Assembly: GCA_015067785.1 (NCBI GenBank)
Contig: SVLR01000006.1
Span: 1 to 64,000 of the forward strand
DNA: 64,000 nt
Source of the DNA: Oscillospiraceae bacterium
GTDB taxonomy: Bacteria > Bacillota > Clostridia > Oscillospirales > Oscillospiraceae
Direction: 5' to 3'
The notes beneath the pieces are model-generated. The model made no database searches and had not been told where the DNA came from. It saw nothing but the letters and a program-made list of their open reading frames with translations. The translations under genes and the position numbers were made by a program. Positions 5,657 to 19,204 of this stretch are shown here, piece after piece (the first letter of the stretch is position 1; each line of letters starts with the position of its first letter).

Positions 5657-5910
5657 TGTCCAAGCCTTCCCCAATCTGTGTCATTGCGCACCGTCTGCAA
5701 ACTGGTGCGGCAATCTCTCGGACTGTATCTCTGTCTATCCTCTGCCAGCCTCAGCAAGCCAAAGCCGCGCCGAAGGATCTGTTTCCCTCGTAGGGGCGAT
5801 TCACGAATTGCCCGCCATACCGCACCTTCGTCCTATCTATGTCATTGCGAGGCACTTGCGCCGTGGCAATCTCCCGGTACAATCTATAATTTGCAATTTT
5901 GCATTTAGAA
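5657..5910. repeat. Intergenic stretch with partial palindromic repeats
   Basis: No gene is seen here. It carries two half-copies of the GTCATTGCG...GGCAATCT repeat family (5680-5716 and 5841-5872), each able to fold into a hairpin, and between them a partial copy of the GTAGGGGCGATTC element (5790-5818). Fuller relatives occur at 15664, 48046 and 13260. The stretch looks like a landing site for small non-coding repeats. Confidence 0.65.
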
Positions 5911-5978: not shown

Positions 5979-7952
5979 TTGCATAAGATCACCGTTCTGC
6001 CCACAAACCGAATACTGGAAGCTGCCGCTGATACAAGTCTATTGACGATCCTCCAAAAAGCCGGGCTTGCACCCGATGCTCCCTGCGGTGGCGAAGGGAA
6101 ATGCGGAAAATGCCGTGTGATAGTGAATGGCAGGGAAGTCCTATCCTGCCGAACCGTCATTGACCGGGATATGATGGTTGAAATTCCTACTCTGACCCGG
6201 GAGCAAATTTTGACCCAAGGCATTGCGCGTGCGCAAGAGGGATGTTACCGTGGCAAGAAAAGTCTTGCTTTCGATATTGGCACTACTACCGTTGCCGGTT
6301 ATTTGCTCGAAGAAAACACCGGCAAACTTCTTGCCACAGCCAGCGCACCAAATCCCCAGCGCGCCTTTGGTGCGGATGTGGTCAGCCGTATCCGTCTTGC
6401 CTGCAGCGGACATATGGTACAGCTTACCGACGCGATCCGTGACTGTGTCACAGAATTGACTGCAGGCCTTTGTCAAAAGGCGGCTTGCGCGCCTGCTGAA
6501 ATTGGTGTTGTCTGCGTAGTAGGCAACCCCACGATGCAGCAGCTTTTATTGGGGATCCCGGTGGATAACTTAGCGAGACCGCCCTTCGCACCGCTGCTGA
6601 CTAAGGCAGATACATTGCCTGCAAAGGCATGTTTGCCCAGCCTTCACAATGCCGAGCTTTTGGTGATTCCGGACATTGCTGGCTTTGTGGGCGCGGACAC
6701 TGTCGCCTGCGTAATGGCAACGGATATGGATCGCAGCGATGAACTGACCCTGCTGGTGGATATTGGTACCAACGGCGAAATGGTGCTGGGCAATCGGGAT
6801 GGCTTAGTGGCCTGCGCCACTGCCGCCGGTCCTGCCTTGGAGGGAGCGAATATCTCCTGCGGTATGACAGCCCGCCCCGGCGCGATCGATCGGGTGTTTT
6901 CGGACGGAACGGTCCGGGTCATTGGAGCGGGTAGGGCAGAGGGTATCTGCGGCTCCGGACTTATCGATGCCGTTGCCGTGGCGCTGGAGCAGGGGAAGCT
7001 CAACAGCCGTGGGAAAATTCTGATTGGCAATGAGATCCTTCTTGCGGAGGAGGTTGCCCTGACCCAGGAGGACATTCGGCAATTCCAGCTTGCAAAGGGC
7101 GCAATATCTGCCGGAATCGGCCTTTTATGCGCCCATATCGGGGTAAAAACGGAGGATATCCAAAGGGTTTATCTTGCTGGCGCATTTGGCAGCTTTCTGG
7201 AGCCTGCCTCTGCCTGCCTGGTGGGACTTCTGCCGCCGGAGCTGGAGGAGAAGATCACCGCAGTCGGCAATGCCGCCGGTAGCGGCGCGGCACTTCTCGC
7301 CCGACAGGAGGATGCGTTTGCTCGGTCAGAGGAAATTGCCCGGCAAACAGAGTATGTATACCTGTCTACCCATAAGGATTTCCCGAAAGCCTTTGCCCGT
7401 GGAATGACTTTTTTAACAAAAGACGACCCAAAATACTGGGCAAATATCGCCCGGAAATGTCACTTTTTCGCCGCTTTTCCGGTGGATATCGATACACTCG
7501 TTCCCCGGGAGGATGTGCGGGCAATGTGCGCTGCCGACAAGTGCGGCGCCTATGGAAAAAACTGGACCTGCCCGCCCTATTGCGGAACCCTTGGGGAATG
7601 CACACAAAAGATCCGCACTTATCGCCGGGGAATCTTGGTGCAGACCGTTGGTAAACTGGAAAAAACCATTGACACCAAGGGCTACCGCCGCACGGAGGAA
7701 AAACACCTCACCAGACTGCATACGTTGTATGAGGAAATACGAAAAGAGTACCCGAATGCCTTGTGCTTAGGCAGCGGCGGCTGTCGGGTCTGCGGAAAAT
7801 GCGCATATCCGGAGCCTTGCCGTTTCCCGGAAAAGGCCATATCCTCTATGGAAGCTTACGGCCTTTTTGTAACGCAGGTGTGCCGCGACAACGGCGCACA
7901 GTATTACCACGGAGAGAAGACGGTTACTTACACAGCGTGTATTTTGTATTAA
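5979..7952 (+). CDS. Corrinoid-activating ferredoxin/ASKHA protein (RACo-type) fused to DUF2284
   Basis: About 657 aa. An N-terminal 2Fe-2S ferredoxin-like domain (residues 1-80, cysteines in CGGEGKCGKC) is followed by an ASKHA ATPase-like module of the RACo/DUF4445 family (from about residue 95: SLAFDIGTTTVAGYLL, later LLVDIGTNGEMVLGN and GSGLIDAVAV, then VYLAGAFGSFLEPASA). RACo proteins use ATP to drive reduction of cob(II)alamin to active cob(I)alamin in corrinoid methyltransferases. The last 180 residues form a Cys-rich DUF2284 domain (DKCGAYGKNWTCPPYCG; CRVCGKCAYPEPCRFPEKA), probably binding Fe-S or another metal. I chose the TTG at 5979 for its GGGGAGGGAG ribosome site and because homology begins there. 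Its likely clients are encoded at 12.6-15.4 kb. Confidence 0.85.
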   Translation: MHKITVLPTNRILEAAADTSLLTILQKAGLAPDAPCGGEGKCGKCRVIVNGREVLSCRTVIDRDMMVEIPTLTREQILTQGIARAQEGCYRGKKSLAFDIGTTTVAGYLLEENTGKLLATASAPNPQRAFGADVVSRIRLACSGHMVQLTDAIRDCVTELTAGLCQKAACAPAEIGVVCVVGNPTMQQLLLGIPVDNLARPPFAPLLTKADTLPAKACLPSLHNAELLVIPDIAGFVGADTVACVMATDMDRSDELTLLVDIGTNGEMVLGNRDGLVACATAAGPALEGANISCGMTARPGAIDRVFSDGTVRVIGAGRAEGICGSGLIDAVAVALEQGKLNSRGKILIGNEILLAEEVALTQEDIRQFQLAKGAISAGIGLLCAHIGVKTEDIQRVYLAGAFGSFLEPASACLVGLLPPELEEKITAVGNAAGSGAALLARQEDAFARSEEIARQTEYVYLSTHKDFPKAFARGMTFLTKDDPKYWANIARKCHFFAAFPVDIDTLVPREDVRAMCAADKCGAYGKNWTCPPYCGTLGECTQKIRTYRRGILVQTVGKLEKTIDTKGYRRTEEKHLTRLHTLYEEIRKEYPNALCLGSGGCRVCGKCAYPEPCRFPEKAISSMEAYGLFVTQVCRDNGAQYYHGEKTVTYTACILY

Positions 7953-7975
7953 TCGGTAAAATTTTATCAAAACCC

Positions 7976-8004
7976 TTGACATTCTATTCTGCGAATACTA
8001 TAAT
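7976..8004 (+). promoter_or_regulatory. Sigma-A promoter of tetR and the downstream operon
   Basis: -35 TTGACA (7976-7981), exactly 17 nt, -10 TATAAT (7999-8004); both boxes match consensus. Confidence 0.85.
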
Positions 8005-8010
8005 AATTAT

Positions 8011-8024
8011 GTGAACGCGTTCAC
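8011..8024. promoter_or_regulatory. Palindromic operator GTGAACGCGTTCAC
   Basis: Perfect 14-bp palindrome starting 6 nt after the -10 box, at the expected transcription start. The core TGAACGCGTTCA recurs at 15460-15471 in the same position of the methyltransferase promoter. It is the likely TetR binding site. Confidence 0.75.
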
Positions 8025-8037
8025 AAAAGGAGTTTTT

Positions 8038-8559
8038 ATGCCCAAAATCATCGAAAATCTGGAAGCCAAGCTGATCGCAGAGGCAAAAAAACAATTGCAG
8101 GAATCCGGATACGGGATGCTCACCATCCGCTCCGTTGCCAAAGGCTGCGGTGTGGGAGTAGGCACGGTGTATAACTATTTCCCTTCCAAGGATGCACTCC
8201 TTGCAACATTTATGCTGGAAAGCTGGAATGTGTGTATGGAGAAGCTCCAAAGCGTCAGTGAGGAATCCGCAGAGCCAAAGCCGGTACTGGGTTGTATGTA
8301 TGAGCAGCTTCTGCAATTTGCTGAAGAGTACCGCTACATCTTCAGCGACGAGGGAGCGGCTTCTGCCTTTGCAGGCTCTTTCGGTCGTTACCACGCGCTA
8401 CTGCGAAGCCAGCTTGCGGCCCCCATGCGGAAATTCTGCTCCGACGATTTCGCTGCGGAATTTGTAGCAGAGGCTATGCTCGTATGGACAATGGCAGGGA
8501 AGCCTTTCGATGAGATTTACGGCATATTAGCAAAAATACTCATGAGTGCCGTTTCATAA
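8038..8559 (+). CDS. TetR-family transcriptional regulator
   Basis: 173-aa TetR regulator. The N-terminal helix-turn-helix is clear (residues about 27-55: MLTIRSVAKGCGVGVGTVYNYF, then SKDALL). The C-terminal ligand domain (residues 60-173) is family-variable and gives no ligand clue. The ATG at 8038 has a GGAG ribosome site 5 nt upstream; a GTG at 8011 lies inside the operator and is rejected. It probably represses its own strong promoter and, through an identical palindrome, the methyltransferase operon starting at 15442. A hairpin terminator separates it from the next gene. Confidence 0.88.
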   Translation: MPKIIENLEAKLIAEAKKQLQESGYGMLTIRSVAKGCGVGVGTVYNYFPSKDALLATFMLESWNVCMEKLQSVSEESAEPKPVLGCMYEQLLQFAEEYRYIFSDEGAASAFAGSFGRYHALLRSQLAAPMRKFCSDDFAAEFVAEAMLVWTMAGKPFDEIYGILAKILMSAVS

Positions 8560-8568
8560 GTTATTTTT

Positions 8569-8600
8569 GGGACTGCACAGGTGCAGTCCCATTTTTATTT
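8569..8600 (+). terminator. Hairpin terminator between tetR and flavin reductase
   Basis: Stem GGGACTGCAC / GTGCAGTCCC followed by ATTTTTATTT. The next ribosome site begins directly after it and I see no new promoter, so it may be a partial (read-through) terminator inside an operon. Confidence 0.75.
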
Positions 8601-8615
8601 AAGGAGAGATGTACT

Positions 8616-9530
8616 ATGTCCAGCTTTGAAAACCTGCGCGTGGTAGATAATTTCTACCAGACCTCCCTGTTCTTCCCCATGCCCACGGTGGTCATCAGCA
8701 CCCTTTGTGAGGATGGCTCCACTACGCTGGGACCCTATTCCCTGGTGCAGCCTTACTACGTGGCGGGTAAGGACTACTATGCGATGCTGCTGAGCTGTCG
8801 CAACAGCTCCAATACCGCTCAGAACATTCTGCGCAGCGGTAAGTGTGCCATTAACTTCGTGGATGACAACCCCAAGACCTTCAAGGAGTGCGTTAAGCTC
8901 TCCTGGCCCGGTGATAAGCCTGAGGATAAGATGCCCAACTGCAAGTTCCGGCTGGAAAAGGGTCAGGCAGAGGGCGAGCGTCCTATGGTGCTCAGCGATG
9001 CCATTCAGGTTATAGAGTGCACTTGGGTCCGTGAGCTGGATGGCGCAGAAAACGACCAGCCCGGCTGTACCACCGGCTACGAACCTCCTTACCACGACTT
9101 TAACGGTATCACCTCCAAGTTCGGCGCACACTTCATTCTGAAGGTCGATAAGATCCTGATGAAGAAGAAGTATAGCGACGCCATCATCAACGGTGTAAAG
9201 GCCAAGGATTTCCCCAACCTGCCTGTTGACTACGGCTACCGGGACAGTAAGAACTTCTGGTTCCACAAGAAGACCCGTATGCGCGCTGAGCTGCTACCCA
9301 TCCGCAAGCAGTCTCTGGACTCTGTCCGTTATGCTGCTGACCGCGCAGATGACAAGGTGAAATTTACCGATGATGCCCTGGAAACCATCCTCAACGTACC
9401 CCGTGTTTTCCTGCCTCTGGTGCTGAAGGGCTGCGTAGAATGGGCAAGAGAGAACAATTGCGAGCTGATCACCGCGAAAGAGATGAAGATCATCAACGAC
9501 AAGCGGGCAAAAGAGAAAGCAAAGAAATAA
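8616..9530 (+). CDS. Flavin reductase-like domain protein
   Basis: 304 aa, with an N-terminal split-barrel FMN-binding domain of the flavin reductase family (residues about 15-180: MPTVVISTLCEDGSTTLGPYS, then SCRNSSNTAQNILRSGKCAINFV). About 100 residues follow the core and do not match a domain I recognise; the last part is Lys-rich. Relatives bind FMN and move electrons between NAD(P)H and an acceptor, but the acceptor cannot be named here. The ribosome site AAGGAGAG is strong. It is the first of three reductase-like genes spaced 13 nt and 1 nt apart, so they probably act together. Confidence 0.8.
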   Translation: MSSFENLRVVDNFYQTSLFFPMPTVVISTLCEDGSTTLGPYSLVQPYYVAGKDYYAMLLSCRNSSNTAQNILRSGKCAINFVDDNPKTFKECVKLSWPGDKPEDKMPNCKFRLEKGQAEGERPMVLSDAIQVIECTWVRELDGAENDQPGCTTGYEPPYHDFNGITSKFGAHFILKVDKILMKKKYSDAIINGVKAKDFPNLPVDYGYRDSKNFWFHKKTRMRAELLPIRKQSLDSVRYAADRADDKVKFTDDALETILNVPRVFLPLVLKGCVEWARENNCELITAKEMKIINDKRAKEKAKK

Positions 9531-9543
9531 GGAGGATATGAAA

Positions 9544-10407
9544 ATGAAAGTAGTTCTGGCTGGCGCCTTTGGTAATTTGGGTGCCGAAATTCTGAAATGT
9601 CTGTGTGCTGCCGGTCACGAGGTGATCGCGGCTGACCTGAAGGAGCGTCCTGTAGATGGCTGCGAGGGTAAGTATACCTTCAAGGCAATCAATGCCACCA
9701 AGCCTGAGACCTTAAATGGCCTTTGTGACGGTGCAGATGTGGTTATCACCACTATGGGTCTTACCGGCGCTTCTACCACCGTTACTTCCTATGACATTGA
9801 CTACAGAGGCAATATGAATCTGTATGCAGAGTGCAAGAAGGCAGGTGTCAAGAAGTTTAACTACATCTCTGTTATCTCCTGCGACGAGCCCGGTGCAGAA
9901 AAGGTGCCTATGCTCCACGCAAAGTACATGGTAGAGCAAGAGATCAAGAAAGAGCCCATGGACTGGGTCATTTACCGTCCCACCGGTTATTTCTACGACA
10001 TTGCTAAGGTATTTAAACCCTATATCGACAAGGGCGAGATGCAGCTGCTCAAGGGCTTTGGCGGTGTCAAGGCCAATGTTGTAGACTGCCCTGACTTCGC
10101 TCAGTTTATTGTGGATCATATGATGGACACCAATGTTACCTACAATGTAGGTGGCAAGGAGACCTATACATATGAAGAGATGGCGCAGATGTGCTTCGAT
10201 GCAGCCGGTAAGCCTATGAAGATCAAGTGGGCGCCCATTTGGCTGTTCGGCATTCTCGCAAACCTGCCCAAGATCAAAAAGGCCGGCAAGCACGACATCA
10301 TTCTGTTCTCTAAGTGGACGCTGAGCCACGATCTGGTGGGTGACACCTGCATTGGTGATAAGAGTTTTGCTGACTACTTGAAGGTTTACTTCGGAAAGGA
10401 GCAGTAA
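9544..10407 (+). CDS. NAD(P)-binding Rossmann protein (atypical SDR/NmrA-like)
   Basis: About 287 aa. The N-terminal VVLAGAFGNLGAEIL is the glycine-rich dinucleotide-binding loop of atypical short-chain dehydrogenases. DVVITTMGLTG, the FNYISVIS strand and WVIYRPTGYFYD follow, as in NmrA/complex I NDUFA9-like proteins. There is no classic YxxxK pair in the usual place, so a sugar-nucleotide epimerase role is unlikely. I chose the second ATG (9544) because GGAGG lies 8 nt upstream of it and only 2 nt from the first ATG. The downstream DUF1295 gene starts 1 nt after the stop. Confidence 0.8.
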   Translation: MKVVLAGAFGNLGAEILKCLCAAGHEVIAADLKERPVDGCEGKYTFKAINATKPETLNGLCDGADVVITTMGLTGASTTVTSYDIDYRGNMNLYAECKKAGVKKFNYISVISCDEPGAEKVPMLHAKYMVEQEIKKEPMDWVIYRPTGYFYDIAKVFKPYIDKGEMQLLKGFGGVKANVVDCPDFAQFIVDHMMDTNVTYNVGGKETYTYEEMAQMCFDAAGKPMKIKWAPIWLFGILANLPKIKKAGKHDIILFSKWTLSHDLVGDTCIGDKSFADYLKVYFGKEQ

Positions 10408-10408
10408 T

Positions 10409-11209
10409 ATGTGGAATTGGATGCACCTTGGTATCTTCTTCGCGCTGAGCTTGCTGGTATGCTTGTGCGGCTTTAAGAAGTATGTTTACTTTATGTCCAT
10501 CGGCTATGGCTTCTCCGTGGCGATCATCGGCGCTGCAATGGCAGTAATAAGCATTATCGGCATCTATCCCGCCGTAGGCATTGCCCATTACATCCAGTTT
10601 GCGCTGTTCGTGATCTACGGCTTCCGCCTGTCCGGTTTCCTGCTGATCCGTGAGATCAAGAATGCTGCTTACCGTAAGACCTTGGCTGAGGCAACCGGTG
10701 ATGAGAGCAAAATGCCTATTTTTGTGAAGTTCTTTATGTGGATCTTTATGGGCGTTCTGTATGTGGCACAGACCTCCGGTGTGGCTTTCCGTCTGTTTAA
10801 CGGCGCAGAAGCAACTGTTTGCCAGTGGGTTGGTATTGCTATTTCTGCATTTGGTATTCTTCTGGAGGCGGTTGCCGATCAGCAGAAGTCTAAGCAGAAG
10901 GCAGAGCGTCCCGATATGGTCGCTACCAAGCAGCTCTATAAGATCGTTCGCTGCCCTAACTATTTTGGCGAGATTCTGTTCTGGACGGGCGTGACCGTTT
11001 CTGCACTGGATATTTTGCAGGGCGTGGGTCAGTGGATCACGGTCATCATTGCTTATATTCTCATCGTATTCATTATGTTTAACGGTGCCCAGCGACTGGA
11101 GAAGCGGCAGATGGCTCGCTACGGCAACAATCCGGAGTACAAGGCATATGCCGACAAGACGCCTATCATTATTCCGTTGCTGCCCATCTACCACTTAAAT
11201 AAGCAGTAA
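10409..11209 (+). CDS. DUF1295 membrane protein (steroid 5-alpha-reductase-like fold)
   Basis: 266-aa polytopic membrane protein with about six to seven hydrophobic segments. The C-terminal part has the diagnostic RCPNYFGEILFWTGV (about residues 183-198) and a final MARYGNNPEYKAYADKTP, matching DUF1295 and the C-terminal NADPH-binding part of steroid 5-alpha-reductases and related methyltransferases. Family members reduce enone double bonds or methylate lipids; the bacterial ones are largely uncharacterised. The tight link with a flavin reductase and a Rossmann protein supports a reductive role. The substrate is unknown. Confidence 0.78.
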   Translation: MWNWMHLGIFFALSLLVCLCGFKKYVYFMSIGYGFSVAIIGAAMAVISIIGIYPAVGIAHYIQFALFVIYGFRLSGFLLIREIKNAAYRKTLAEATGDESKMPIFVKFFMWIFMGVLYVAQTSGVAFRLFNGAEATVCQWVGIAISAFGILLEAVADQQKSKQKAERPDMVATKQLYKIVRCPNYFGEILFWTGVTVSALDILQGVGQWITVIIAYILIVFIMFNGAQRLEKRQMARYGNNPEYKAYADKTPIIIPLLPIYHLNKQ

Positions 11210-11214
11210 TTATG

Positions 11215-11245
11215 AAAAAGGACCATCGCGAGATGGTCCTTTTTT
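11215..11245 (+). terminator. Strong terminator after the reductase trio
   Basis: Stem AAAAAGGACCATC / GATGGTCCTTTTTT with a GCGA loop. The next gene's ribosome site starts immediately after the T-run, with no promoter seen between. Confidence 0.88.
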
Positions 11246-11263
11246 GGAAAGAGAGGTATATGT

Positions 11264-11914
11264 ATGTTTCCTATTTTATCTGCCGGTTATAACTTTACGG
11301 TTTCTATGGGACTTATGGATTTCGTGCCGGTTCTTTTCTTCGGCATTACCGCGGTGATCCTTTTGCGGGATCTTTACAATAAGATGTTTAAGGGCGCTTA
11401 TGCCCTTTTGGCGGCAGGTGCAGTCAATGTATTTTTGGCTGGTTTTTGTAAGGCCCTGTGGAAGCTTTTGTATGCTGCAAATATCTGTGATTTTGTAGCG
11501 CTGGAAAAGATGTTTATGCCTATGAATTCTCTGGGCCTGCTGTTCGTTGGACTGAGTCTTGTAGGTATGCTCATTTGGAAGCGGAAGGGAGCGATGCTCT
11601 CTGTCGCGCCTGTTGCCTATACCAGCAGCTTGCCCTTCATTATGATGATGGTGGTGGGTCTCGGCGGTATGTGCGCCGCCCTGAGTGTTGTTGCTGCCAA
11701 AATGAAAAAAGCGCCGGTAATGGTGTTGTTCATTCTTTCCTTTGTCTGTGCCATGGCTATGGGCTATATGTCCAGCCAGGATTCTACCCAAGCTTGGGTC
11801 AACTGGGTGGAGCAGAGCATCAACACGGTCAGCCAGCTTTGTCTAATGATTGGTACAATCCTGCTTCATAAGGCAGGCTTAAAGAGCTTTACTTGGGAGG
11901 CAACCAAGGTATGA
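11264..11914 (+). CDS. Multi-spanning membrane protein of unknown family (paralog 1)
   Basis: 216 aa, with about six or seven hydrophobic segments and no catalytic motif I recognise. It is clearly related to the 157-aa protein at 15784. Shared landmarks are LMDFVPVLFFGITAVI versus LVDAIPVLSFGISMVI, AGFCKALWKLL versus AGCCKVAWKLV, KMFMPMNSLG versus KPFVPMQGAG, and NWVEQSINTVSQLCLMIG versus NWTAQIINAVGQTCLLLG. The two copies flank the corrinoid methyltransferase island, suggesting a shared transport, sensing or membrane-anchor role (inference). Its stop overlaps the next start as ATGA. Confidence 0.75.
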   Translation: MFPILSAGYNFTVSMGLMDFVPVLFFGITAVILLRDLYNKMFKGAYALLAAGAVNVFLAGFCKALWKLLYAANICDFVALEKMFMPMNSLGLLFVGLSLVGMLIWKRKGAMLSVAPVAYTSSLPFIMMMVVGLGGMCAALSVVAAKMKKAPVMVLFILSFVCAMAMGYMSSQDSTQAWVNWVEQSINTVSQLCLMIGTILLHKAGLKSFTWEATKV

Positions 11915-12561
11915 CAGAGAAAATGCTGAAGAGAATCAGCGCACAATTTCCACTTAAGGAGCTTTCCTGCGGGGAGTTCGCCCAGCAGAAGGTCAGCGGT
12001 ATGCGCTTTCAGATCCGCCGCTTTACTGCCGAGGGTCTGGGCAGCGTATCGGAAATGAGAGCTGTAGGCTTTTTCGGTCTTATGAAAATGGATACACTCA
12101 TTATTACCCCGACCGAAAAGGATATGCCCCTTTATTCCTATGACCGGGTGCTGGCAATGGGGAATGATACCCTGATTTTTGAGTTGTACGACACCTTGCT
12201 GGGTGAGACAGAGCTTTCGGGTTTAGAGAAGGTGAAGGAGACCTATCAAGAGCTTCCTGACCACGATCTTGGCAAGCATTGGTACGATGATATTAAGCTT
12301 CCCGTCAGCCTTTCCAAGAAGGGCAAAAAGGTCCACACAGCGGCTTTCGATAAATGCACGCTGGAATACTTGGATGCCTACTTAAAGGCGGCAAAGGCGG
12401 CTGCAGTGTGCGATGCTGCCCAAAAGCGGGAGAAGGCCAGCGTCTATGTAGAGGGCTTGCTTAAAAACGGCGGTCCTTCCACCGATGTGTTCAAAAAAAG
12501 CATTGGCGAAGAAAAGACCGGAGAGCTGTTCCGCAAGGTGCTGTTTGCTACGAAAGCATAA
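11911..12561 (+). CDS. Unknown protein translationally coupled to the membrane protein
   Basis: 216 aa, soluble, no signal peptide, not recognised. It has an N-terminal alpha/beta stretch with MRAVGFFGLMKMDTLIITP, then PLYSYDRVLAMGNDTLIFEL near residues 75-95, and a helical Lys-rich C-terminal half. The central DTLIITP...PLYSYD...GNDTLIFELYDT pattern loosely recalls ferredoxin-dependent bilin/chlorophyll-catabolite reductases, which bind open tetrapyrroles, but the similarity is too weak to name it. The ATG at 11911 overlaps the previous stop by 4 bases and has GGGAGG upstream. It is the last gene of the rightward operon. Confidence 0.65.
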   Translation: MTEKMLKRISAQFPLKELSCGEFAQQKVSGMRFQIRRFTAEGLGSVSEMRAVGFFGLMKMDTLIITPTEKDMPLYSYDRVLAMGNDTLIFELYDTLLGETELSGLEKVKETYQELPDHDLGKHWYDDIKLPVSLSKKGKKVHTAAFDKCTLEYLDAYLKAAKAAAVCDAAQKREKASVYVEGLLKNGGPSTDVFKKSIGEEKTGELFRKVLFATKA

Positions 12562-12569
12562 AAAAGATT

Positions 12570-12600
12570 GCCGGAGTGGATTTCCACTCCGGCTCATTTT
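12570..12600. terminator. Terminator between convergent operons
   Basis: Stem GCCGGAGTGGA / TCCACTCCGGC preceded by an A-run and followed by TCATTTT. It can serve both the rightward reductase operon and the leftward methyltransferase operon. Confidence 0.8.
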
Positions 12601-12607
12601 ATGTAGT

Positions 12608-13234
12608 TTAGTTCTCAGCCCAAGCCTTGCAAGTAGCAACGGTCTTTTGGGGGCTGTGCGCCCATTCGTCGGCACCGATGTTTGCGCAAGCTTCTGCGGA
12701 GACAGGTGCGCCGCCAATGATGACCTTGCAGTCGAGACCTGCGTCACGGATGGCCTGTACGGTTGCTTTCATAGAATCCAGCGCCAAGGTCAGAACACCG
12801 GAGAGCGCTACGATCTTGATGCCTTCTGCCTTTGCGGTTTCTACAACCTTTTCAGCGGGGCAGTCAATGCCGAGATCCAGCACATCAAAACCGTTGGCTT
12901 CCAGCATAGAACGGACGATATTCTTACCAATGTCGTGGAGGTCGTCCTTGACGGTGCACAGGATCATCCGGGTCTTTGCACCGGTGGATGCGGCACCGGC
13001 TAAGTAAGGCTTCAAAATTTCCACAGCGTCGGTCATCAGTTCGCCTGCGTAGATCAGGTCGCCTACAAAGTACTCGCCCTCTTCAAAGAGCTTACCAACG
13101 GTGTCCATACCCTTTTGGCAGGCTTCCATTGCTTTGCCGGCAGCTTCCTCGGAGTCAACGGCTTCCAGCAGTTCCTTGACGGTATCCTCGTCCAGCTCAC
13201 CCATAGCGGTGGCTAAATTTTCGAAATCGATCAT
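12608..13234 (-). CDS. Corrinoid (B12-binding) protein of a methyltransferase system
   Basis: 208 aa. The N-terminal helical cap (residues 1-85) matches the methionine-synthase B12-binding cap found in MtbC/MttC/MtaC proteins. The C-terminal Rossmann-like B12 domain has the base-off ligand motif DLHDIGKNIV (DxHxxG, about residues 105-112), then SGVLTLALDSM and IIGGAPVS. The cobalt-bound methyl group would shuttle between two methyltransferases. The start at 13234 has CTCCT (AGGAG on this strand) 8 nt away. It is the last gene of a leftward operon behind the UroD-like and MtrH-like genes and is separated from the latter by a double-hairpin repeat. Confidence 0.93.
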   Translation of the reverse strand: MIDFENLATAMGELDEDTVKELLEAVDSEEAAGKAMEACQKGMDTVGKLFEEGEYFVGDLIYAGELMTDAVEILKPYLAGAASTGAKTRMILCTVKDDLHDIGKNIVRSMLEANGFDVLDLGIDCPAEKVVETAKAEGIKIVALSGVLTLALDSMKATVQAIRDAGLDCKVIIGGAPVSAEACANIGADEWAHSPQKTVATCKAWAEN

Positions 13235-13259
13235 AATCATTTCTCCTTTTGTTTGTTGC

Positions 13260-13309
13260 GTAGGGGTCATTCACGAATGACCCGCGGGCGATTCGTGAAT
13301 CGCCCCTAC
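13260..13309. repeat. Double-hairpin (cloverleaf-like) palindromic repeat
   Basis: An outer inverted repeat GTAGGGG / CCCCTAC encloses two perfect hairpins, GGGTCATTC-AC-GAATGACCC and GGGCGATTC-GT-GAATCGCCC. It lies between the MtrH-like and corrinoid-protein genes within one transcript. Partial relatives are at 5790, 19326 and 19600. It could act as an mRNA processing or stability element. Confidence 0.8.
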
Positions 13310-13312
13310 AAG

Positions 13313-14119
13313 TTATTTTTTGCCGAACAGTCCCTTGCGGTATGCCCGGTTATACTTTCTGCCGCCCTTGTCGGTCATACGCAGGGCTTCACAGGCATAG
13401 ATGGTGCCCATCATCGCATCGCTGCAGGGGTCCATAATGGCGCTGTCCAAGCCCGCGGCAATGGCGTATGCCATACAGTTCATATTTACATATTTCCGGG
13501 CGGGCATATCAAAGCTGATGTTGGAAATTGCGCCGGTGACCTTGACCTCGGGGGCATAGGCATGGATGTTTTCGATGCAGTAGGCAAAGTCGGACATGGC
13601 AGAGGGCATAGTCGCCAGCGCCATGACGCAGGGATCAATGTGGAGCTTATTTAGTTCCACACCGTATTTCACTGCCTTGTCAATGATCCGCTTGGCAATT
13701 TCCACTTTTTTCACGGGATCGGCAGGAATGCCCTCCTGATCGCAGGTAAGACCGACCACTTCCCAGTCTGTTCCGGCAATGAGGGGGAAGATGGTCTCAC
13801 ATTTTGTACCTTCCTCGTTAACGGAGTTGACCATACCCGGTCTTTTCAGGTGATCTTCTTCTATGATCCGGGCAAGAAGATTGGCGTCGGGGCTGTCGAT
13901 GCAGAGGGGCGTGTCGGTACAGCCCTGCATAAGACCGATGAGCCAAACCATGGTCTCGTATTCGATCTCCGTTGCTGTGGAGGGGGCGCAGTCCAAAAAG
14001 GCAGCGCCGGCATTTGCCTGGGCGATGGTACGCTCGACGATCAGACCTTCGTTTTTTTCTGCAATCGCCTGCTTGATGCTTGGAATTGCGCCATTAATTT
14101 TTTCACCGATAATAATCAT
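13313..14119 (-). CDS. Methyltetrahydrofolate:corrinoid methyltransferase (pterin-binding, MtrH/MeTr-like)
   Basis: 268 aa, a TIM-barrel pterin-binding domain like those of AcsE/MeTr and MtrH. It begins MIIIGEKINGAIPSIKQAI, the classic GE(K/R)IN start, and shows NAGAAFLDCAPS, LCIDSPD, NSVNEEGTK and a late GAISNISFDMP. Such enzymes transfer methyl between a corrinoid protein and tetrahydrofolate. Here it would take methyl from the corrinoid protein encoded next to it and make methyl-THF, or run the reverse reaction. The start at 14119 has GAGGT 6 nt upstream. The C-terminal tail (NRAYRKGLFGKK) is short and basic. Confidence 0.9.
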   Translation of the reverse strand: MIIIGEKINGAIPSIKQAIAEKNEGLIVERTIAQANAGAAFLDCAPSTATEIEYETMVWLIGLMQGCTDTPLCIDSPDANLLARIIEEDHLKRPGMVNSVNEEGTKCETIFPLIAGTDWEVVGLTCDQEGIPADPVKKVEIAKRIIDKAVKYGVELNKLHIDPCVMALATMPSAMSDFAYCIENIHAYAPEVKVTGAISNISFDMPARKYVNMNCMAYAIAAGLDSAIMDPCSDAMMGTIYACEALRMTDKGGRKYNRAYRKGLFGKK

Positions 14120-14130
14120 TTTGCTACCTC

Positions 14131-14259
14131 TTAGCCGTCGGTCAAAATGGTCAGCAGCAGACGCATCATTTTCTCCCGCATAGGACCAAAGTACCAAGGC
14201 ACAAGCTTCTTCATCAGCTTCTGATAGCCGTTGGGATAAGACTTAAATTCGTTTTTCAT
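14131..14259 (-). CDS. 42-aa small protein within the corrinoid operon
   Basis: Small ORF encoding 42 residues, beginning MKNEFKSYPNGYQKLMKKLV and containing PWYFGPMREKMM. It has its own ribosome site (GAGGTG, 6 nt before the ATG), starts 10 nt after the UroD-like stop and ends 11 nt before the MtrH-like start, so it fills the operon gap exactly. It is basic and amphipathic, with a hydrophobic end (MMRLLLTILTDG). I do not recognise it. It may be a small subunit or a membrane-associating partner of the methyltransferase. Confidence 0.65.
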   Translation of the reverse strand: MKNEFKSYPNGYQKLMKKLVPWYFGPMREKMMRLLLTILTDG

Positions 14260-14269
14260 CGCTTGCACC

Positions 14270-15442
14270 TCACAGTCTGTAGCTGCTTACGAAATCGCAA
14301 ACAGCTTTGTAGTTTTCCCGGTTTGCATCGTTGCGGTAGGAAAGCATCTTGCCCTCGGAGAGGATAAAGCCACCGTCCTTGCCCAGTTCGTCACACAGAC
14401 GTTTCGTATAGGCAACGCACTCCTCAGGTGTGCCGTTTTGGAGCAGCTCGGTGGTGAGACCGCCCATAATGCACACATTAGGCAGAGCCTCTCTAAATTC
14501 GAAGGGATCGTCCTGCTCGATATGGAAGGTCAGCACGCCCTTGGGGTAGTCTTTGAAGTACTCCGCAAAGCGGAGGATGGAGCCTTCGGTGAAGATACGG
14601 ATATTCATACCCTTTTCGGCATAAGCATCCAAAAGCTCCTTCAGGTGGGGCCAGTAGAAGCGTTCGAACTGCTTTTTGTTCATCACATTGTGGGCAAGCA
14701 TCAGAATGGAGGAGTCGAAACAGTACTTATAGTTGGGACCCTTGCCGTTTTTGATCTTCTCAATGGCGGGGGTGATCCGCTCCGCATCCCAGCGGTTAAT
14801 AAAGGCCTCAATCTCGTCGGGATTCCGGCGCATTGCTACAGAAAGCTGCTGGATGCCCAAAAGATTGGAGAACAGCTCCTCGATGCCCAAAACGATGGCA
14901 CCGCTCATGGGGTTATTGGGGGAGAGGGAGGGCAGACCGTACTGCTTTCCGGTGATGCCGGACATATGCAGAATGTACTTAGTGTAGCGCATATACTCTG
15001 CAAAAGTCTTTTTCCAGACATCAAAGCCCTTTTCATCCCAGCTTGCGCCGTACTTCTTGGGGAGAATGACCTCCCAAGCGTACTTTATGGGATCGTCTAA
15101 GTACTGCTGAAGGGTCTCCACGGTGCAGTGGGCATGGTCGTGGATGCCAACCACATTTTCGTCATAGTAATAGTAGCCGCCATCGCCGAAGGCTTCGGTA
15201 ACGGTGAACTGGTTGCGGATGCCCACATCCATCAGTCCGTCTACCGGGTAGCGCTCCAAGAATTTGACTACCGTTTCTTCCAGTACATCAAAGTTGGTCA
15301 TTGCCTGATCTAGCGTGTAGCCCGCATCGAATACCTTCCAAGTGACCACATTGGCAAAATGGGGGATCCGATCGGTCTTTTTGAAGTTTGCCACATCCCG
15401 GTAAAGCTGTACGCGGGCGGCCTTTAGTTCTTTAGAGTTCAT
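14270..15442 (-). CDS. UroD-family methyltransferase (probable methyltransferase I)
   Basis: 390 aa, uroporphyrinogen-decarboxylase superfamily. True UroD makes coproporphyrinogen, but the company of a corrinoid protein and a MtrH-like enzyme points to the methyltransferase branch (MtaA/CmuA and O-demethylase components). Landmarks are RIPHFANVVTWKVFDAGY near residue 23, YPVDGLMDVG, LHMSGITGKQYG and GGFILSEGKMLSYRNDANREN at the end. The HxC...C zinc ligands of MtaA/CmuA are not visible. Instead there is E-X16-E-X20-H in ELLDAYAEKG...FTEGS...TFHIEQDD. The ATG at 15442 is preceded by AGGAG. It is the first gene of the leftward operon, under the palindromic operator. The substrate is unknown. 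Confidence 0.85.
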   Translation of the reverse strand: MNSKELKAARVQLYRDVANFKKTDRIPHFANVVTWKVFDAGYTLDQAMTNFDVLEETVVKFLERYPVDGLMDVGIRNQFTVTEAFGDGGYYYYDENVVGIHDHAHCTVETLQQYLDDPIKYAWEVILPKKYGASWDEKGFDVWKKTFAEYMRYTKYILHMSGITGKQYGLPSLSPNNPMSGAIVLGIEELFSNLLGIQQLSVAMRRNPDEIEAFINRWDAERITPAIEKIKNGKGPNYKYCFDSSILMLAHNVMNKKQFERFYWPHLKELLDAYAEKGMNIRIFTEGSILRFAEYFKDYPKGVLTFHIEQDDPFEFREALPNVCIMGGLTTELLQNGTPEECVAYTKRLCDELGKDGGFILSEGKMLSYRNDANRENYKAVCDFVSSYRL

Positions 15443-15459: not shown

Positions 15460-15471
15460 TGAACGCGTTCA
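15460..15471. promoter_or_regulatory. Operator TGAACGCGTTCA of the methyltransferase operon
   Basis: Perfect 12-bp palindrome identical to the core of the operator at 8011-8024 and likewise placed 5-7 nt after the -10 box. It is the probable binding site of the TetR encoded at 8038. Confidence 0.78.
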
Positions 15472-15505: not shown

Positions 15506-15663
15506 TTCTTTTGAAAATATCCATAAAAAATTGTGAGATTGCACAGTAAAAGGCAAGAAAACACACTTTTAGAGCGGGAAAACTTATGCTGTTTGTGCAT
15601 AGCATTTTAGAAAAGAAAGTGCTATAATACCCGGGAAAATAGGGGTGTGTATCTTTTTTGTTT

Positions 15664-15761
15664 GTCATTGCGAACCAGTGACCGATGTCACTGGTGTGGC
15701 AATCTGCAAATAATTCGCCCTTTAGATTCCCACGCCAGTTTGCGAACTGGCTCGGAATGAC
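15664..15761. repeat. Dispersed palindromic repeat, full copy A
   Basis: 98-bp element starting GTCATTGCGAACCAG and ending CTCGGAATGAC, with imperfect terminal inversion. The left half forms a hairpin around AACCAGTGAC/GTCACTGGT and the right half one around GCCAGTTTGCGAACTGGC. A second full copy lies at 48046-48146. Both end about 20 nt before a gene start. No transposase is present. Confidence 0.85.
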
Positions 15762-15783
15762 AATATAGAAGGAGGATCTCTTT

Positions 15784-16257
15784 ATGGAAGGTTTTACTTT
15801 GGCGCTGGCGCTGGTGGATGCCATCCCGGTGCTGAGCTTTGGAATCAGTATGGTAATCATCGCAAGCCGGTTTCATTCTCCGCTTTTTATGGTCGGCGCG
15901 GCGCTGAGCGTATTGGCAGGCTGCTGCAAGGTGGCTTGGAAATTGGTGCTTGGCATTTGGAAAAAAGACCTGCGGTGGCTCAACAAACCCTTTGTTCCCA
16001 TGCAGGGCGCAGGTTTCCTTTTGATGCTCATTTCCTTTATTATCGGCTTTGGGAAGATCGATTGGGCAGGTGTGCTGGCAGGCATTACAAGCATTCCCAG
16101 CTTGCTGTTCTTTGTGGCGTGGATCGGTCTTATGGGCTTTATGGGCTGGTATCGGAAAAATAAGTTTAAGAACGACGATGCTCATTCTAACTGGACAGCG
16201 CAGATCATCAATGCGGTAGGGCAGACCTGTTTGCTATTGGGTATTTTGTTTGCTTAA
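15784..16257 (+). CDS. Multi-spanning membrane protein of unknown family (paralog 2)
   Basis: 157 aa, about five hydrophobic segments. Paralog of the protein at 11264 (shared VPVL/IPVL-FGI, A-CCK-WKL and NW-QIN-V-Q-CLL-G landmarks) but about 60 residues shorter, mostly in the loop before the last two helices. The start has a GAAGGAGG ribosome site. It is divergent from the UroD-like operon and downstream of repeat copy A; I see no strong promoter of its own, only a TATAAT at about 15622. Its position next to the corrinoid island, with paralog 1 on the other side, suggests a role tied to the same substrate. Confidence 0.7.
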   Translation: MEGFTLALALVDAIPVLSFGISMVIIASRFHSPLFMVGAALSVLAGCCKVAWKLVLGIWKKDLRWLNKPFVPMQGAGFLLMLISFIIGFGKIDWAGVLAGITSIPSLLFFVAWIGLMGFMGWYRKNKFKNDDAHSNWTAQIINAVGQTCLLLGILFA

Positions 16258-16399: not shown

Positions 16400-17797
16400 T
16401 TAGAACAGATTTTGGAACAGGTTTGTGAAAAATTCACCGATGGCTTCAAAGGCTTCGATCAGCATCAAAAAGGGTGCAGCCAGCAGTACGATCCAGGCCC
16501 AGTTAAAGCTGCTATCTGTCTTTTCCGGGTTATCCGTTTCACAAAGCTGGAACATAAGCTCGTCTTCATGAAGGGCATCAAGAGACAGCTTATAGCCAGT
16601 GTCAGTTTTTTCAAAGCTTTGAGGCATACTGTCAAGGAGATAGTAGGGCGTGTTGATCACCACATCCAGCTTGCCGAAGCTTTCCCAAGTGTGACCTGTG
16701 AACAGAAAATGCCGGTAGTCATATACGCCCGGCTCATAGCCTTCTCGTACGAAGGGATAAACGGGAACGGTGACAGTGTTCACGACCCGTTGCTGCGGTT
16801 CTACAGTGATCTCGTATTCATACCAGGACATCAAATTCGCCGTGAAGGTGGGCGGCTTATCCGGATGGAAGACAGCCGGGTAGGTTCGGGAAAAAGAATT
16901 ATCGTTAATATCTTCTACAACGGCATTATACCAGTCCTGCTTCGATATGCCTTCTTCCTCGCGCCAGTTACGGAGGGTCAGATCCTGAAAGGTAAGCTTT
17001 TCGGAGTAGAGAAGGGTGGCAGTTCCGGAAATCTGCTCGCTATCCTTTGCGGTCCGCTCTTGATAGAATTTCCACTGAGGCATTTCAGTCAGCGGTTCAC
17101 CGATCACATATAGACCGATGCGCTGTTCGTTTTTGGCATACGCCACAAGGCGCAGGCTGGCGCGCTCTTCCATTAAGTGGAAGGAAGTCATATCCTTAAG
17201 ATAGAAGCGGCGGTCTCCCAATTCGCGGGGAAGGTCGATGGCTACAGAGGCTTCCTTGTATTTTTCATTGTCCACATCGCTGACGGCAAACCAATAGGCA
17301 GTTACGGGCATATCGGGGGAGTAGAAGGGGTCTTCTATGTAGGTGTCCCACAAAAGATCTTTGTTTGTACGAAAGCGCTGGCTGCCAAGGCTGTGTCGGA
17401 GTGTTTTTGTCACTTCGACGCCATCTGTAAGGACGGTATATGTTTCGGCGACTGAAATGTCTTTTCTGCCGTATTCAGGCTGACCGAAGCAGGGGAGCAG
17501 AAGTTTTGCGGTAATGGTCGTATCTGTGGGATTATAGATGGTATATTGGGCGGTGAGCTTGCCGGTATAGGCAAGGAAGGCGGCGTCGCTTTCATACTCC
17601 TCTTTTGGAAACTCGGCGATGTCGAAGGTCAACACCGTGTTTTCGACTTCCAGTGGGGAGTCATAGTCGTTTATTGCTACGCCGGCGCTCTCTGCGCCAT
17701 ATTGGTCGTACATAGGTGTGGGAGCTGTGGCGGAAACGGGCTTGGCACCGCCGAAAAGGAGCAGCAGCACCAAAAAAGCAGAAAGAAATCTTTTCAT
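16400..17797 (-). CDS. Secreted or membrane-anchored protein, tandem paralog 2
   Basis: 465 aa, not recognised. It has an N-terminal signal peptide (MKRFLSAFLVLLLLFGGAKPVSA; no lipobox) and a C-terminal membrane helix (WAWIVLLAAPFLMLIEAF, about residues 433-450), so the roughly 400-residue body is probably outside the cell and anchored. It aligns along its length with the gene at 17813 (for example FAVSDVDNEKYKEASVAIDLP versus FSISGVDTATYKSAVVAFD, and EEEGISKQDWYNAVVEDIN versus ETGVSEEDWYNAIVADLN). The pair arose by tandem duplication. 15 nt separate them, with the same promoter upstream. Confidence 0.75.
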   Translation of the reverse strand: MKRFLSAFLVLLLLFGGAKPVSATAPTPMYDQYGAESAGVAINDYDSPLEVENTVLTFDIAEFPKEEYESDAAFLAYTGKLTAQYTIYNPTDTTITAKLLLPCFGQPEYGRKDISVAETYTVLTDGVEVTKTLRHSLGSQRFRTNKDLLWDTYIEDPFYSPDMPVTAYWFAVSDVDNEKYKEASVAIDLPRELGDRRFYLKDMTSFHLMEERASLRLVAYAKNEQRIGLYVIGEPLTEMPQWKFYQERTAKDSEQISGTATLLYSEKLTFQDLTLRNWREEEGISKQDWYNAVVEDINDNSFSRTYPAVFHPDKPPTFTANLMSWYEYEITVEPQQRVVNTVTVPVYPFVREGYEPGVYDYRHFLFTGHTWESFGKLDVVINTPYYLLDSMPQSFEKTDTGYKLSLDALHEDELMFQLCETDNPEKTDSSFNWAWIVLLAAPFLMLIEAFEAIGEFFTNLFQNLF

Positions 17798-17812
17798 AAT
17801 CGTACCTCCTTA

Positions 17813-19204
17813 TTAGAATTGGAAGAGATTTGCGATGCCATCAAAAAGAGATTGGAACAGATAGCCGATCATAGAGAAGAAAAACGCAATTCCATAGAGA
17901 AAACCGTAAAAGATATTTACCTTTGGCGGCTCGGGATCTTCTGCTTCGCTGAGAGTAAAGGTCAGCTCGCCTTCGGGAAGTCCGTCGAGGGTGAGGGTGT
18001 AGCCGGTATCGGTCTTCTCATAGCCGTCGAGACTGCTTTCGGTGATGTAATAAGGCGTATTTACCACAATCTCCAGCTCCCCAAAGCTTTTCCAGGTCTT
18101 TGCCGGGGAGAGGAGATAGGTATAGCCATAGATGTCCGGGTCGTAATCCAGGTCGATGGAGGGATAGATGGGAGCAGTGACGGAATTGACGATCCGCTGA
18201 CCCGGCTGCAGTGTGATCTCATACTCATACCAACGCATGAGATTCTCTGCAAGGCGGTTTTGATTCGCGATCTGATAAATGATAGGGTGCTTGCTGCGCA
18301 CATTGGTGTTAAGGTCTGCAACGATAGCATTGTACCAGTCTTCTTCAGATACACCTGTTTCTGCGTTCCAGCCATTCAAGGCAAACGCTTGGAAGGTAGT
18401 TTCTTCAATGCCGGAGAATCGGGCAGTGCCGGAAATTCGCTCGCTGTCTTTTGCACCGCCATCCTGATAAAACTTAAACTCCGGGTAAACCTTTAACGGT
18501 TCGCCGAAAACATAAAGTGCAATGCTGCTTCCGTTATTTCTCACGCTGGTGGCAATACGCATATCCCCGTTATTCTGCTGATGGCTACCCCGGCAATCAT
18601 CGAGGTAGTACCGCCGTGCGCCAAGTCCCTCGGGTACATCAAAAGCAACAACGGCAGACTTATAGGTTGCTGTATCCACGCCGCTGATCGAAAACTTATA
18701 TACTGTTACGGGAAGCGCAGGGGAATAGAAAGGATCCTCCGCAAAGGTGTCTGAGAGAAGGGACAGGTCTTGCTCTAAATCAAATTGACCATAGTAGGAG
18801 AGGGTGTGGCGGATTTTCTTCTCTACGGGCTGACCGTCGATGAGGATGTCGTATTTCCCGGTATCTGTGCCGGAATCCATACCGTACCAAGGTATAGCAC
18901 CAAAGGGGAACAGGAGCTTTGCACTCACGGTAAGCTCCGAGGGGTTATGGAAAGTATACGCCGCTGTGACTTTGCCGGAATAAGCGAGGAATTCTGCTTC
19001 TTCCCAATAGTGTGGTTGGGGGAATTCCTGCAAATCAAAGGTCAGCAATTCCTTCTCTACCACGATGGGGCTTTCGCCACTTGTAACGATGGCACCGGTG
19101 CGATCCACGCCCTCCCAGTAGGACTGGGCAGAGTTGGCGGAAACAGACGGGGTACTGCCAAGAAGAATCAGCAGCACCAAAAGGATAGAAAGCAATCTTT
19201 TCAT
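17813..19204 (-). CDS. Secreted or membrane-anchored protein, tandem paralog 1
   Basis: 463 aa, first gene of the pair. Signal peptide MKRLLSILLVLLILLGSTPSVSA, a long beta-rich extracellular body with many aromatic residues, and a C-terminal hydrophobic segment (FYGFLYGIAFFFSMIGYLF). The YTFHNPSELTVSAKLLFPFG segment and its partner YTIYNPTDTTITAKLLLPC in the paralog look like an immunoglobulin-like fold. No enzyme motif is seen. A GGAGG ribosome site lies upstream. Function unknown; the two proteins may form a heteromer. Confidence 0.75.
   Translation of the reverse strand: MKRLLSILLVLLILLGSTPSVSANSAQSYWEGVDRTGAIVTSGESPIVVEKELLTFDLQEFPQPHYWEEAEFLAYSGKVTAAYTFHNPSELTVSAKLLFPFGAIPWYGMDSGTDTGKYDILIDGQPVEKKIRHTLSYYGQFDLEQDLSLLSDTFAEDPFYSPALPVTVYKFSISGVDTATYKSAVVAFDVPEGLGARRYYLDDCRGSHQQNNGDMRIATSVRNNGSSIALYVFGEPLKVYPEFKFYQDGGAKDSERISGTARFSGIEETTFQAFALNGWNAETGVSEEDWYNAIVADLNTNVRSKHPIIYQIANQNRLAENLMRWYEYEITLQPGQRIVNSVTAPIYPSIDLDYDPDIYGYTYLLSPAKTWKSFGELEIVVNTPYYITESSLDGYEKTDTGYTLTLDGLPEGELTFTLSEAEDPEPPKVNIFYGFLYGIAFFFSMIGYLFQSLFDGIANLFQF

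Follow-up and report, generated by a model that had tools for sequence, protein, structure and literature searches.

The stretch analysed here (the window) comprises 64,000 nucleotides of contig SVLR01000006.1 from the Oscillospiraceae bacterium assembly GCA_015067785.1, which spans 1.99 Mb and is 81.8% complete. Positions 5979 to 15442 form an island that holds, by protein family, a full corrinoid methyl-transfer set, namely a methyltransferase I (MT I) candidate, a corrinoid protein, a methyltransferase II (MT II) and an activator, together with a reductase operon. The genes of the island, and one membrane protein gene next to it, are as follows.

5979 to 7952, plus strand: RACo-type corrinoid activator with a C-terminal DUF2284 domain (657 amino acids, TTG start; Pfam PF00111, PF17651, PF14574 and PF10050)
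8038 to 8559, plus strand: TetR-family regulator (PF00440, E = 1.4e-12; ATG start at 8038, as indicated by the operator and the ribosome-binding site)
8616 to 9530, plus strand: FlvRed, flavin-reductase-like (304 amino acids; PF01613, 28.0 bits, cut-off 27)
9538 to 10407, plus strand: SDR-type protein (NAD_binding_10, NmrA and 3Beta_HSD matches)
10409 to 11209, plus strand: DUF1295 membrane protein, a steroid 5-alpha-reductase relative (PF06966, E = 2e-27; PF02544, E = 3e-6; RCPNYFGE)
11264 to 11914, plus strand: u216, membrane protein with five hydrophobic segments (paralogue of u157, BLASTP E = 3e-14)
11911 to 12561, plus strand: u222, putative remote bilin reductase homologue (PF05996, E = 0.005, below cut-off)
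12608 to 13234, minus strand: corrinoid protein (208 amino acids; PF02310, B12-binding; PF02607, B12-binding_2; DLHDIG, that is, DxHxxG)
13313 to 14119, minus strand: MT II of the methyl-tetrahydrofolate:corrinoid methyltransferase type, MtrH-like (268 amino acids; NCBIfam PRK07535, 289.8 bits, cut-off 259)
14270 to 15442, minus strand: UroD-family protein, the MT I candidate (390 amino acids; PF01208, 48.6 bits, cut-off 23.9)
15784 to 16257, plus strand: u157, small membrane protein facing away from UroD (paralogue of u216)

Pfam and NCBIfam matches place RACo, the corrinoid protein, the pterin-type methyltransferase and the UroD-family protein where the first-pass annotation of this DNA had put them, and bear out its claim of a complete four-part set. 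Its term 'one island' is also right, since the last three genes lie in one minus-strand row and RACo is on the same island; 'one operon' would be wrong for the four parts, because RACo is 4.7 kb away on the opposite strand. RACo carries the 2Fe-2S (Fer2), Raco_middle and RACo_C_ter (ASKHA) domains, matches PDB entry 3zyy (E = 8e-65) and, read directly, retains the cysteines of the 2Fe-2S motif; against the AcsV model NF040756, it reaches 322 bits of the 800 required. MT II matches PDB entry 4o0q (E = 9e-78), with identity at 127 of 266 aligned positions (48%); the record is named 'Dihydropteroate synthase DHPS', and we take it to be the O-demethylase MT II of Desulfitobacterium hafniense. The sole solved-structure match of the UroD-family protein by sequence is CdmB of Acetobacterium malicum subsp. 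dehalogenans (9rui, E = 1e-9), which a profile of 11 UroD relatives also finds (E = 7e-10). Neither the hemE model TIGR01464 nor the MtaA/CmuA model TIGR01463 is listed for this protein at E up to 1, and PRK06252 gives only 20.6 bits (cut-off 244). Candidate catalytic or metal residues are its E286 and E309, which are each conserved in 31 of the 32 sequences compared and both replaced in the MtaA-like protein of contig C55. The zinc motif E-X14-E-X20-H, a possible hallmark of MT I proteins, is absent in that form: E294 and E309 fit the first spacing, position 294 varies between D and E, and position 330 is T rather than H.

The six plus-strand genes from TetR to u222 (8038 to 12561) converge with the minus-strand row UroD-MtrH-corrinoid (15442 to 12608), and the following signals accompany the two rows.

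7976 to 8004, plus strand: sigma-70-like promoter TTGACA-17-TATAAT before TetR (12 of 12 consensus bases)
8012 to 8023, no strand: operator 1, the perfect palindrome TGAACGCGTTCA, between the −10 box and the TetR start codon
12570 to 12593, no strand: hairpin between the convergent rows, a likely terminator (10-pair stem, T-rich tail both ways)
15460 to 15471, no strand: operator 2, the perfect palindrome TGAACGCGTTCA, between the −10 box and the UroD start codon
15477 to 15505, minus strand: promoter-like TTGACA-17-TATTCT before UroD (10 of 12 consensus bases)

Promoters and terminators were used only where comparative support existed, as the overall scan gave 13 promoter sites against 10.0 expected, which is not significant, and 16 terminators against 13.6 in shuffled sequence. 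A comparison of the two upstream regions showed that each TGAACGCGTTCA directly follows the −10 box and precedes the ribosome-binding site. In the whole, incomplete 1.99-Mb assembly, exact TGAACGCGTTCA occurs twice, both times in the island, and its reversed control does not occur. Sites with at most one mismatch number two in the window against 0.13 expected, a count of at least two arising in 1 of 100 shuffles.

Relatives of the island were found in contigs titled as Oscillospiraceae, Ruminococcaceae, Clostridiales and Clostridia metagenome-assembled genomes (MAGs); where a source is stated, it is sheep, roe deer, goat, water buffalo or 'Lapin' (taken as rabbit), and we regard the organism as a gut bacterium closely related to others in herbivores. 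The operator survey covered 79 loci (1.21 Mb), or 74 after removal of duplicated contigs (L095, L096, L098, L102 and L185 repeat L008, L005, L009, L007 and L004, respectively). The strict form TGAAC[AG][CT]GTTCA occurs at 40 sites, of which 40 lie 14 to 27 base pairs before a TetR or UroD start; without duplicates, the count is 31 of 31. These loci were preselected for carrying island genes, and the genome-wide TGAACGCGTTCA count is the fairer test of specificity. No strict operator was present in 19 loci that carry FlvRed and in which no TetR was found beside it (L089, L091, L094, L105, L108, L110, L111 and L115–L126). Rabbit-type rows have the operator at TetR only. At UroD, L015 shows the variant TGAACCTGTTCA (its internal TetR has no site upstream), L017 and L018 show TGAATTCGTTCA, and L016 shows no site. 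The shared operator provides sequence-level evidence that MT I, MT II and the corrinoid protein appear to be co-regulated with the reductase operon, and TetR is the presumed repressor of both operons, presumably by binding TGAACGCGTTCA.

The linkage is conserved in relatives. Eighteen other UroD loci were found, 15 at at least 75% identity and three (L016–L018) at about 60%. MtrH and corrinoid genes follow UroD in 14 of the 15, the exception (L020) being a UroD fragment at a contig end, and this grouping is not due to chance. The plus-strand genes between RACo and the corrinoid gene (TetR, FlvRed, SDR, DUF1295, u216 and u222) are conserved in relatives. Reductase-set genes stand beside the UroD row in 13 of the 15 loci; L020 lacks them, and L006 ends about 120 bases past the corrinoid gene. 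The window, L005 and L007–L009 share the convergent arrangement. By contrast, the rabbit MAGs (L010–L013 and L019, in which UroD is split, with L014 up to its contig end) carry a row in one direction, TetR-FlvRed-UroD-MtrH-corrinoid-RACo-DUF2284-SDR-DUF1295-u216, and L015 reads UroD-MtrH-corrinoid-TetR-FlvRed-SDR before its contig ends. Both gene sets therefore form one apparent operon in relatives, in two different orders. Near the UroD genes of L016–L018, no reductase genes were seen; FlvRed is a contig-end fragment in one of their genomes and absent from another.

Among 136 genomes of the genus, UroD at at least 75% identity is present in 13 (in one as a fragment at a contig end, in another split in two), FlvRed at at least 60% in 27, and both in 12. 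FlvRed thus accompanies UroD in 12 of its 13 genomes and is found in 15 of the 123 that lack UroD (Fisher p = 4e-9, or p = 1e-5 with the six rabbit genomes counted once; owing to relatedness among the genomes, these values serve as guides only). Across the class, a sample of 391 genomes that includes the present one has FlvRed relatives in 20 (E ≤ 1e-5) and UroD relatives in 19 (E ≤ 1e-10). The gene for u157 lies upstream of UroD, or of TetR-FlvRed-UroD in rabbit loci, in all 13 loci at the 75% level with DNA on that side (L004–L015 and L019), and is absent from L016–L018. In locus L088 (6731 to 9708, genome G057), a RACo frame truncated at the edge of the contig, a 62-amino-acid frame matching RACo-DUF2284, TetR with the operator and FlvRed stand beside u463 and UPRT. 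The locus lacks the block from SDR to UroD, and this 92% complete genome has no listed UroD match, which looks like a loss of that block.

The first-pass annotation had called the reductase operon unusual for known systems of this kind, a view that is supported here and that the operator common to both rows strengthens. The DUF1295 protein exceeds the cut-offs of both its families (PF06966, 96.4 bits, cut-off 20.4; PF02544, 27.6 bits, cut-off 22.6), which tells nothing about its substrate, and has six hydrophobic segments and a weak PDB match to 7c83 (E = 0.07). No Pfam family was found for the window u216 at E up to 10. The C terminus of FlvRed was suspected of carrying a PCP_red domain, an idea dropped because Pfam lent it no support at E up to 10. 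The reductases also stand alone, for example as SDR-DUF1295-u216-u222 in L200 and L201, and are therefore a separable set that was joined to the demethylase genes.

A likeness of u222 to bilin reductases was first noticed by eye. The window protein reaches 16.9 bits against PF05996 (cut-off 31) and has no NCBIfam match. The match improves in the L109 protein (E = 3e-4) and passes the cut-off in the homologues of L202 (31.3 bits, E = 2e-7) and L206 (31.9 bits, E = 1.4e-7), which the u222-family profile ties to the window protein (E = 3e-37 and 3e-30); both also match PRK13247 (15,16-dihydrobiliverdin:ferredoxin oxidoreductase) below cut-off (E = 5e-9 and 1e-9). PF05996 is listed for seven of the 12 family members scanned, covering 68–85% of the profile up to its end, and not for L099, L101, L200, L201 and L207. 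PDB profile searches listed no bilin reductase chain, and the AlphaFold model (pLDDT 44) was too poor for a fold search. A PF05996 search of the 391 class genomes returned two at E ≤ 0.01, both u222 genes and neither over cut-off, and missed G285 and G175, whose u222 proteins (L202 and L206) are matched by hmmscan; the family itself occurs in 12 of the 391 (E ≤ 0.001). Because PF05996 is found in seven of 12 members and NCBIfam matches in two, we regard u222 as remotely homologous to the ferredoxin-dependent bilin reductases and do not count it as an established member. In family f44 genomes (L203, 4544 to 8134; L202, L204 and L206), a u222 homologue lies beside two FAD-type oxidoreductases, one of which was scanned, where the window has SDR and DUF1295; the L207 homologue is flanked by an SDR and a flavodoxin-ferredoxin protein.

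The DUF2284 domain on RACo was not mentioned in the first-pass annotation. RACo and DUF2284 are two separate neighbouring frames in L008, L010–L013 and L019. Since DUF2284 is fused to, adjacent to or near RACo across loci, this cysteine-rich domain may work with the activator, which suggests a role in electron supply or assembly. On contig C55 of the same genome, DUF2284 likewise lies close to RACo (L038, 9453 to 12344).

In corrinoid systems of this family, MT I moves a methyl group to Co(I), MT II passes it to tetrahydrofolate (THF) and RACo restores Co(I). We hold with moderate confidence that the island encodes an inducible, TetR-controlled corrinoid demethylase coupled to reduction of the same methylated, lipophilic and probably plant-derived compound, a reading based on the protein families, the shared operator, the conserved linkage and acetyl-CoA synthase-type genes, from which we infer the direction of transfer, TetR binding, a single compound for both sets and the nature of that compound. 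The compound would bind TetR and thereby free the two identical operators. The UroD-type MT I would then load the compound's methyl group onto the Co(I) corrinoid protein, from which MT II (MtrH-like) would pass it on to THF, acetyl-CoA synthase would carry it into acetyl-CoA, and RACo-DUF2284 would re-reduce accidentally oxidized Co(II). Demethylase and reductases probably share this lipophilic substrate: FlvRed, SDR, the DUF1295 protein and, in some strains, u222 may reduce its double bonds or carbonyls before or after demethylation, and u216 and u157 would be located in the membrane. As for the fate of the methyl group, the genome holds two AcsB-type genes (PF03598) and, near one of them on contig C26, a second RACo protein of 641 amino acids that is AcsV-like by position; a Wood-Ljungdahl sink for methyl-THF is therefore likely in this genome.

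Several observations weigh against this coupling. In the stretch read, TetR-FlvRed occurs with some of DUF1295, u216, SDR and u222 and without methyltransferase genes in ten loci (L090, L093, L097, L099–L101, L103, L104, L106 and L109), and FlvRed occurs without any of these genes in further loci, so that a methylated compound is not a necessary substrate of the reductases. Genome G542, whose UroD is 60% identical, has FlvRed in unrelated surroundings. Furthermore, SDR is missing from L005, L008 and L009, u222 is present in three of the 15 UroD loci (some cut by contig ends), and TetR loci without the strict operator exist (L103 and L113 with variants, L109 with no site near the start). In the window, an operator was sought before RACo and not found, so that co-expression of all four methyl-transfer genes is suggested by the gene order of the rabbit-gut relatives only. 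A doubtful but serious alternative is that the two sets share a regulator and have separate jobs: TetR would sense plant phenolics or lipophilic xenobiotics and switch on a general reductive detoxification operon alongside a demethylase for a different compound. Such a division would fit the many relatives in which TetR-FlvRed and its partners lack methyltransferase genes and mostly keep the same operator (it is present, for instance, in L099 and L101), and the varied surroundings of FlvRed across the class, among the matches listed. It fits less well with the joining of both sets into one row in two different orders, and with FlvRed in 12 of the 13 UroD genomes of the genus.

A different methyl donor, for example a halomethane, thioether, quaternary amine or methyl ester rather than an aryl methyl ether, would leave the four-part chemistry as it is, and we think this rather unlikely. 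UroD-family MT I proteins are diverse, and the nearest structure, CdmB, comes from a bacterium that also uses chloromethane; however, the closest MT II structure is the presumed O-demethylase component 4o0q, and MttB-type proteins, which serve betaine and amine systems, are absent among the proteins scanned, the rest of the genome not having been searched. The direction could also be reversed, with methyl-THF as the donor that methylates a reduced product so that it can be exported or detoxified. Transfers of the corrinoid type may run both ways and sequence does not give their direction, but the acetyl-CoA synthase-type genes offer a sink for methyl-THF and an inducible arrangement suits catabolism better, which makes reversal improbable. 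A still longer shot makes the compound a product of the breakdown of tetrapyrroles from the herbivore diet, for example a chlorophyll catabolite. Here, the Co(I) corrinoid would demethylate the methyl beta-keto ester of the isocyclic ring in a Krapcho-like enzymatic reaction, followed by decarboxylation, and reduction of the conjugated system would fall to u222, SDR, the DUF1295 protein and FlvRed; if true, this would open a route for chlorophyll in the gut and be, to our knowledge, the first methyl-ester demethylase of the corrinoid type. That the UroD-like protein is the uroporphyrinogen decarboxylase of the haem pathway is hardly credible: TIGR01464 finds the MtaA-like protein of C55 below cut-off and does not list this one at E up to 1, the gene stands in a row with corrinoid protein and MT II, and E286 and E309 recur in the relatives of L177 and L179, whose genes have corrinoid and MtrH genes nearby.

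The demethylase proposed here resembles, in its MT I, corrinoid protein, MtrH/AcsE-like MT II and RACo-type activator, the four-component O-demethylases known from acetogens (Acetobacterium dehalogenans Odm and Vdm, and D. hafniense) and MtoABCD of Methermicoccus; the window MT I is a distant relative of A. malicum subsp. dehalogenans CdmB. Unlike these systems, the window has a TetR operator common to a linked reductase operon and a RACo-DUF2284 fusion. The TetR-FlvRed-[SDR]-DUF1295-u216-[u222] sets that lack methyltransferases share its genes and partly their order. The window u222 differs from ferredoxin-dependent bilin reductases in having SDR and DUF1295 as neighbours. The second corrinoid system of the genome, on contig C55, also has a UroD-family protein, corrinoid proteins, DUF2284 and RACo, and differs in its MtaA-like second UroD-family protein, in that no MtrH was seen and in a 505-amino-acid protein that, by eye, combines an AraC-type regulator with a corrinoid domain. 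A likely transporter of 418 amino acids (by eye) stands beside UroD in L179 and L180, and none stands beside the window UroD.

UroD-type demethylase gene sets are common in acetogens, and only a minority of their substrates are known. What is new here is that the reductase operon seems to belong to one regulon with the demethylase genes. Together, the regulator, its operator and the reductases linked to them single out one candidate pathway, and the inducer of a single TetR could therefore reveal the substrate. Such a pathway would tie acetogenesis in the herbivore gut to the turnover of a specific plant compound, and offers a lead on function for the FlvRed family, this branch of DUF1295 and the bilin-reductase-like family of anaerobes.

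Other features lie in or near this and related islands. A membrane protein with seven hydrophobic segments, uX223, follows the corrinoid gene in L004 (12859 to 13530), L005 (10984 to 11649), L007 (12922 to 13590) and L021 (1909 to 2571), and is missing in the window between the corrinoid gene and the hairpin. In G117 and G127 of the same genus, L183 (6313 to 13016) and L184 hold another kind of four-part set: MtrH, a corrinoid protein, a 482-amino-acid protein that by eye looks membrane-bound, UroD (28% identical) and RACo, without the operator. Window scans gave no Rfam family at gathering score and no tRNA, and no plasmid record carried most of the island. Imperfect inverted repeats of the GTCATTGCGAG...GGCAATCTC type occupy the leaders of UroD/u157 (15663 to 15790) and RACo (about 5680 to 5880), and 47 base pairs of the former (15663 to 15709) match a Vescimonas fastidiosa replicon at 98%, the best of five places. 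Beyond u157, positions 16400 to 19204 encode two adjacent proteins of 463–465 amino acids without a Pfam family, alike by eye and with signal-like N termini; the counterpart of the second occupies two frames in L004.

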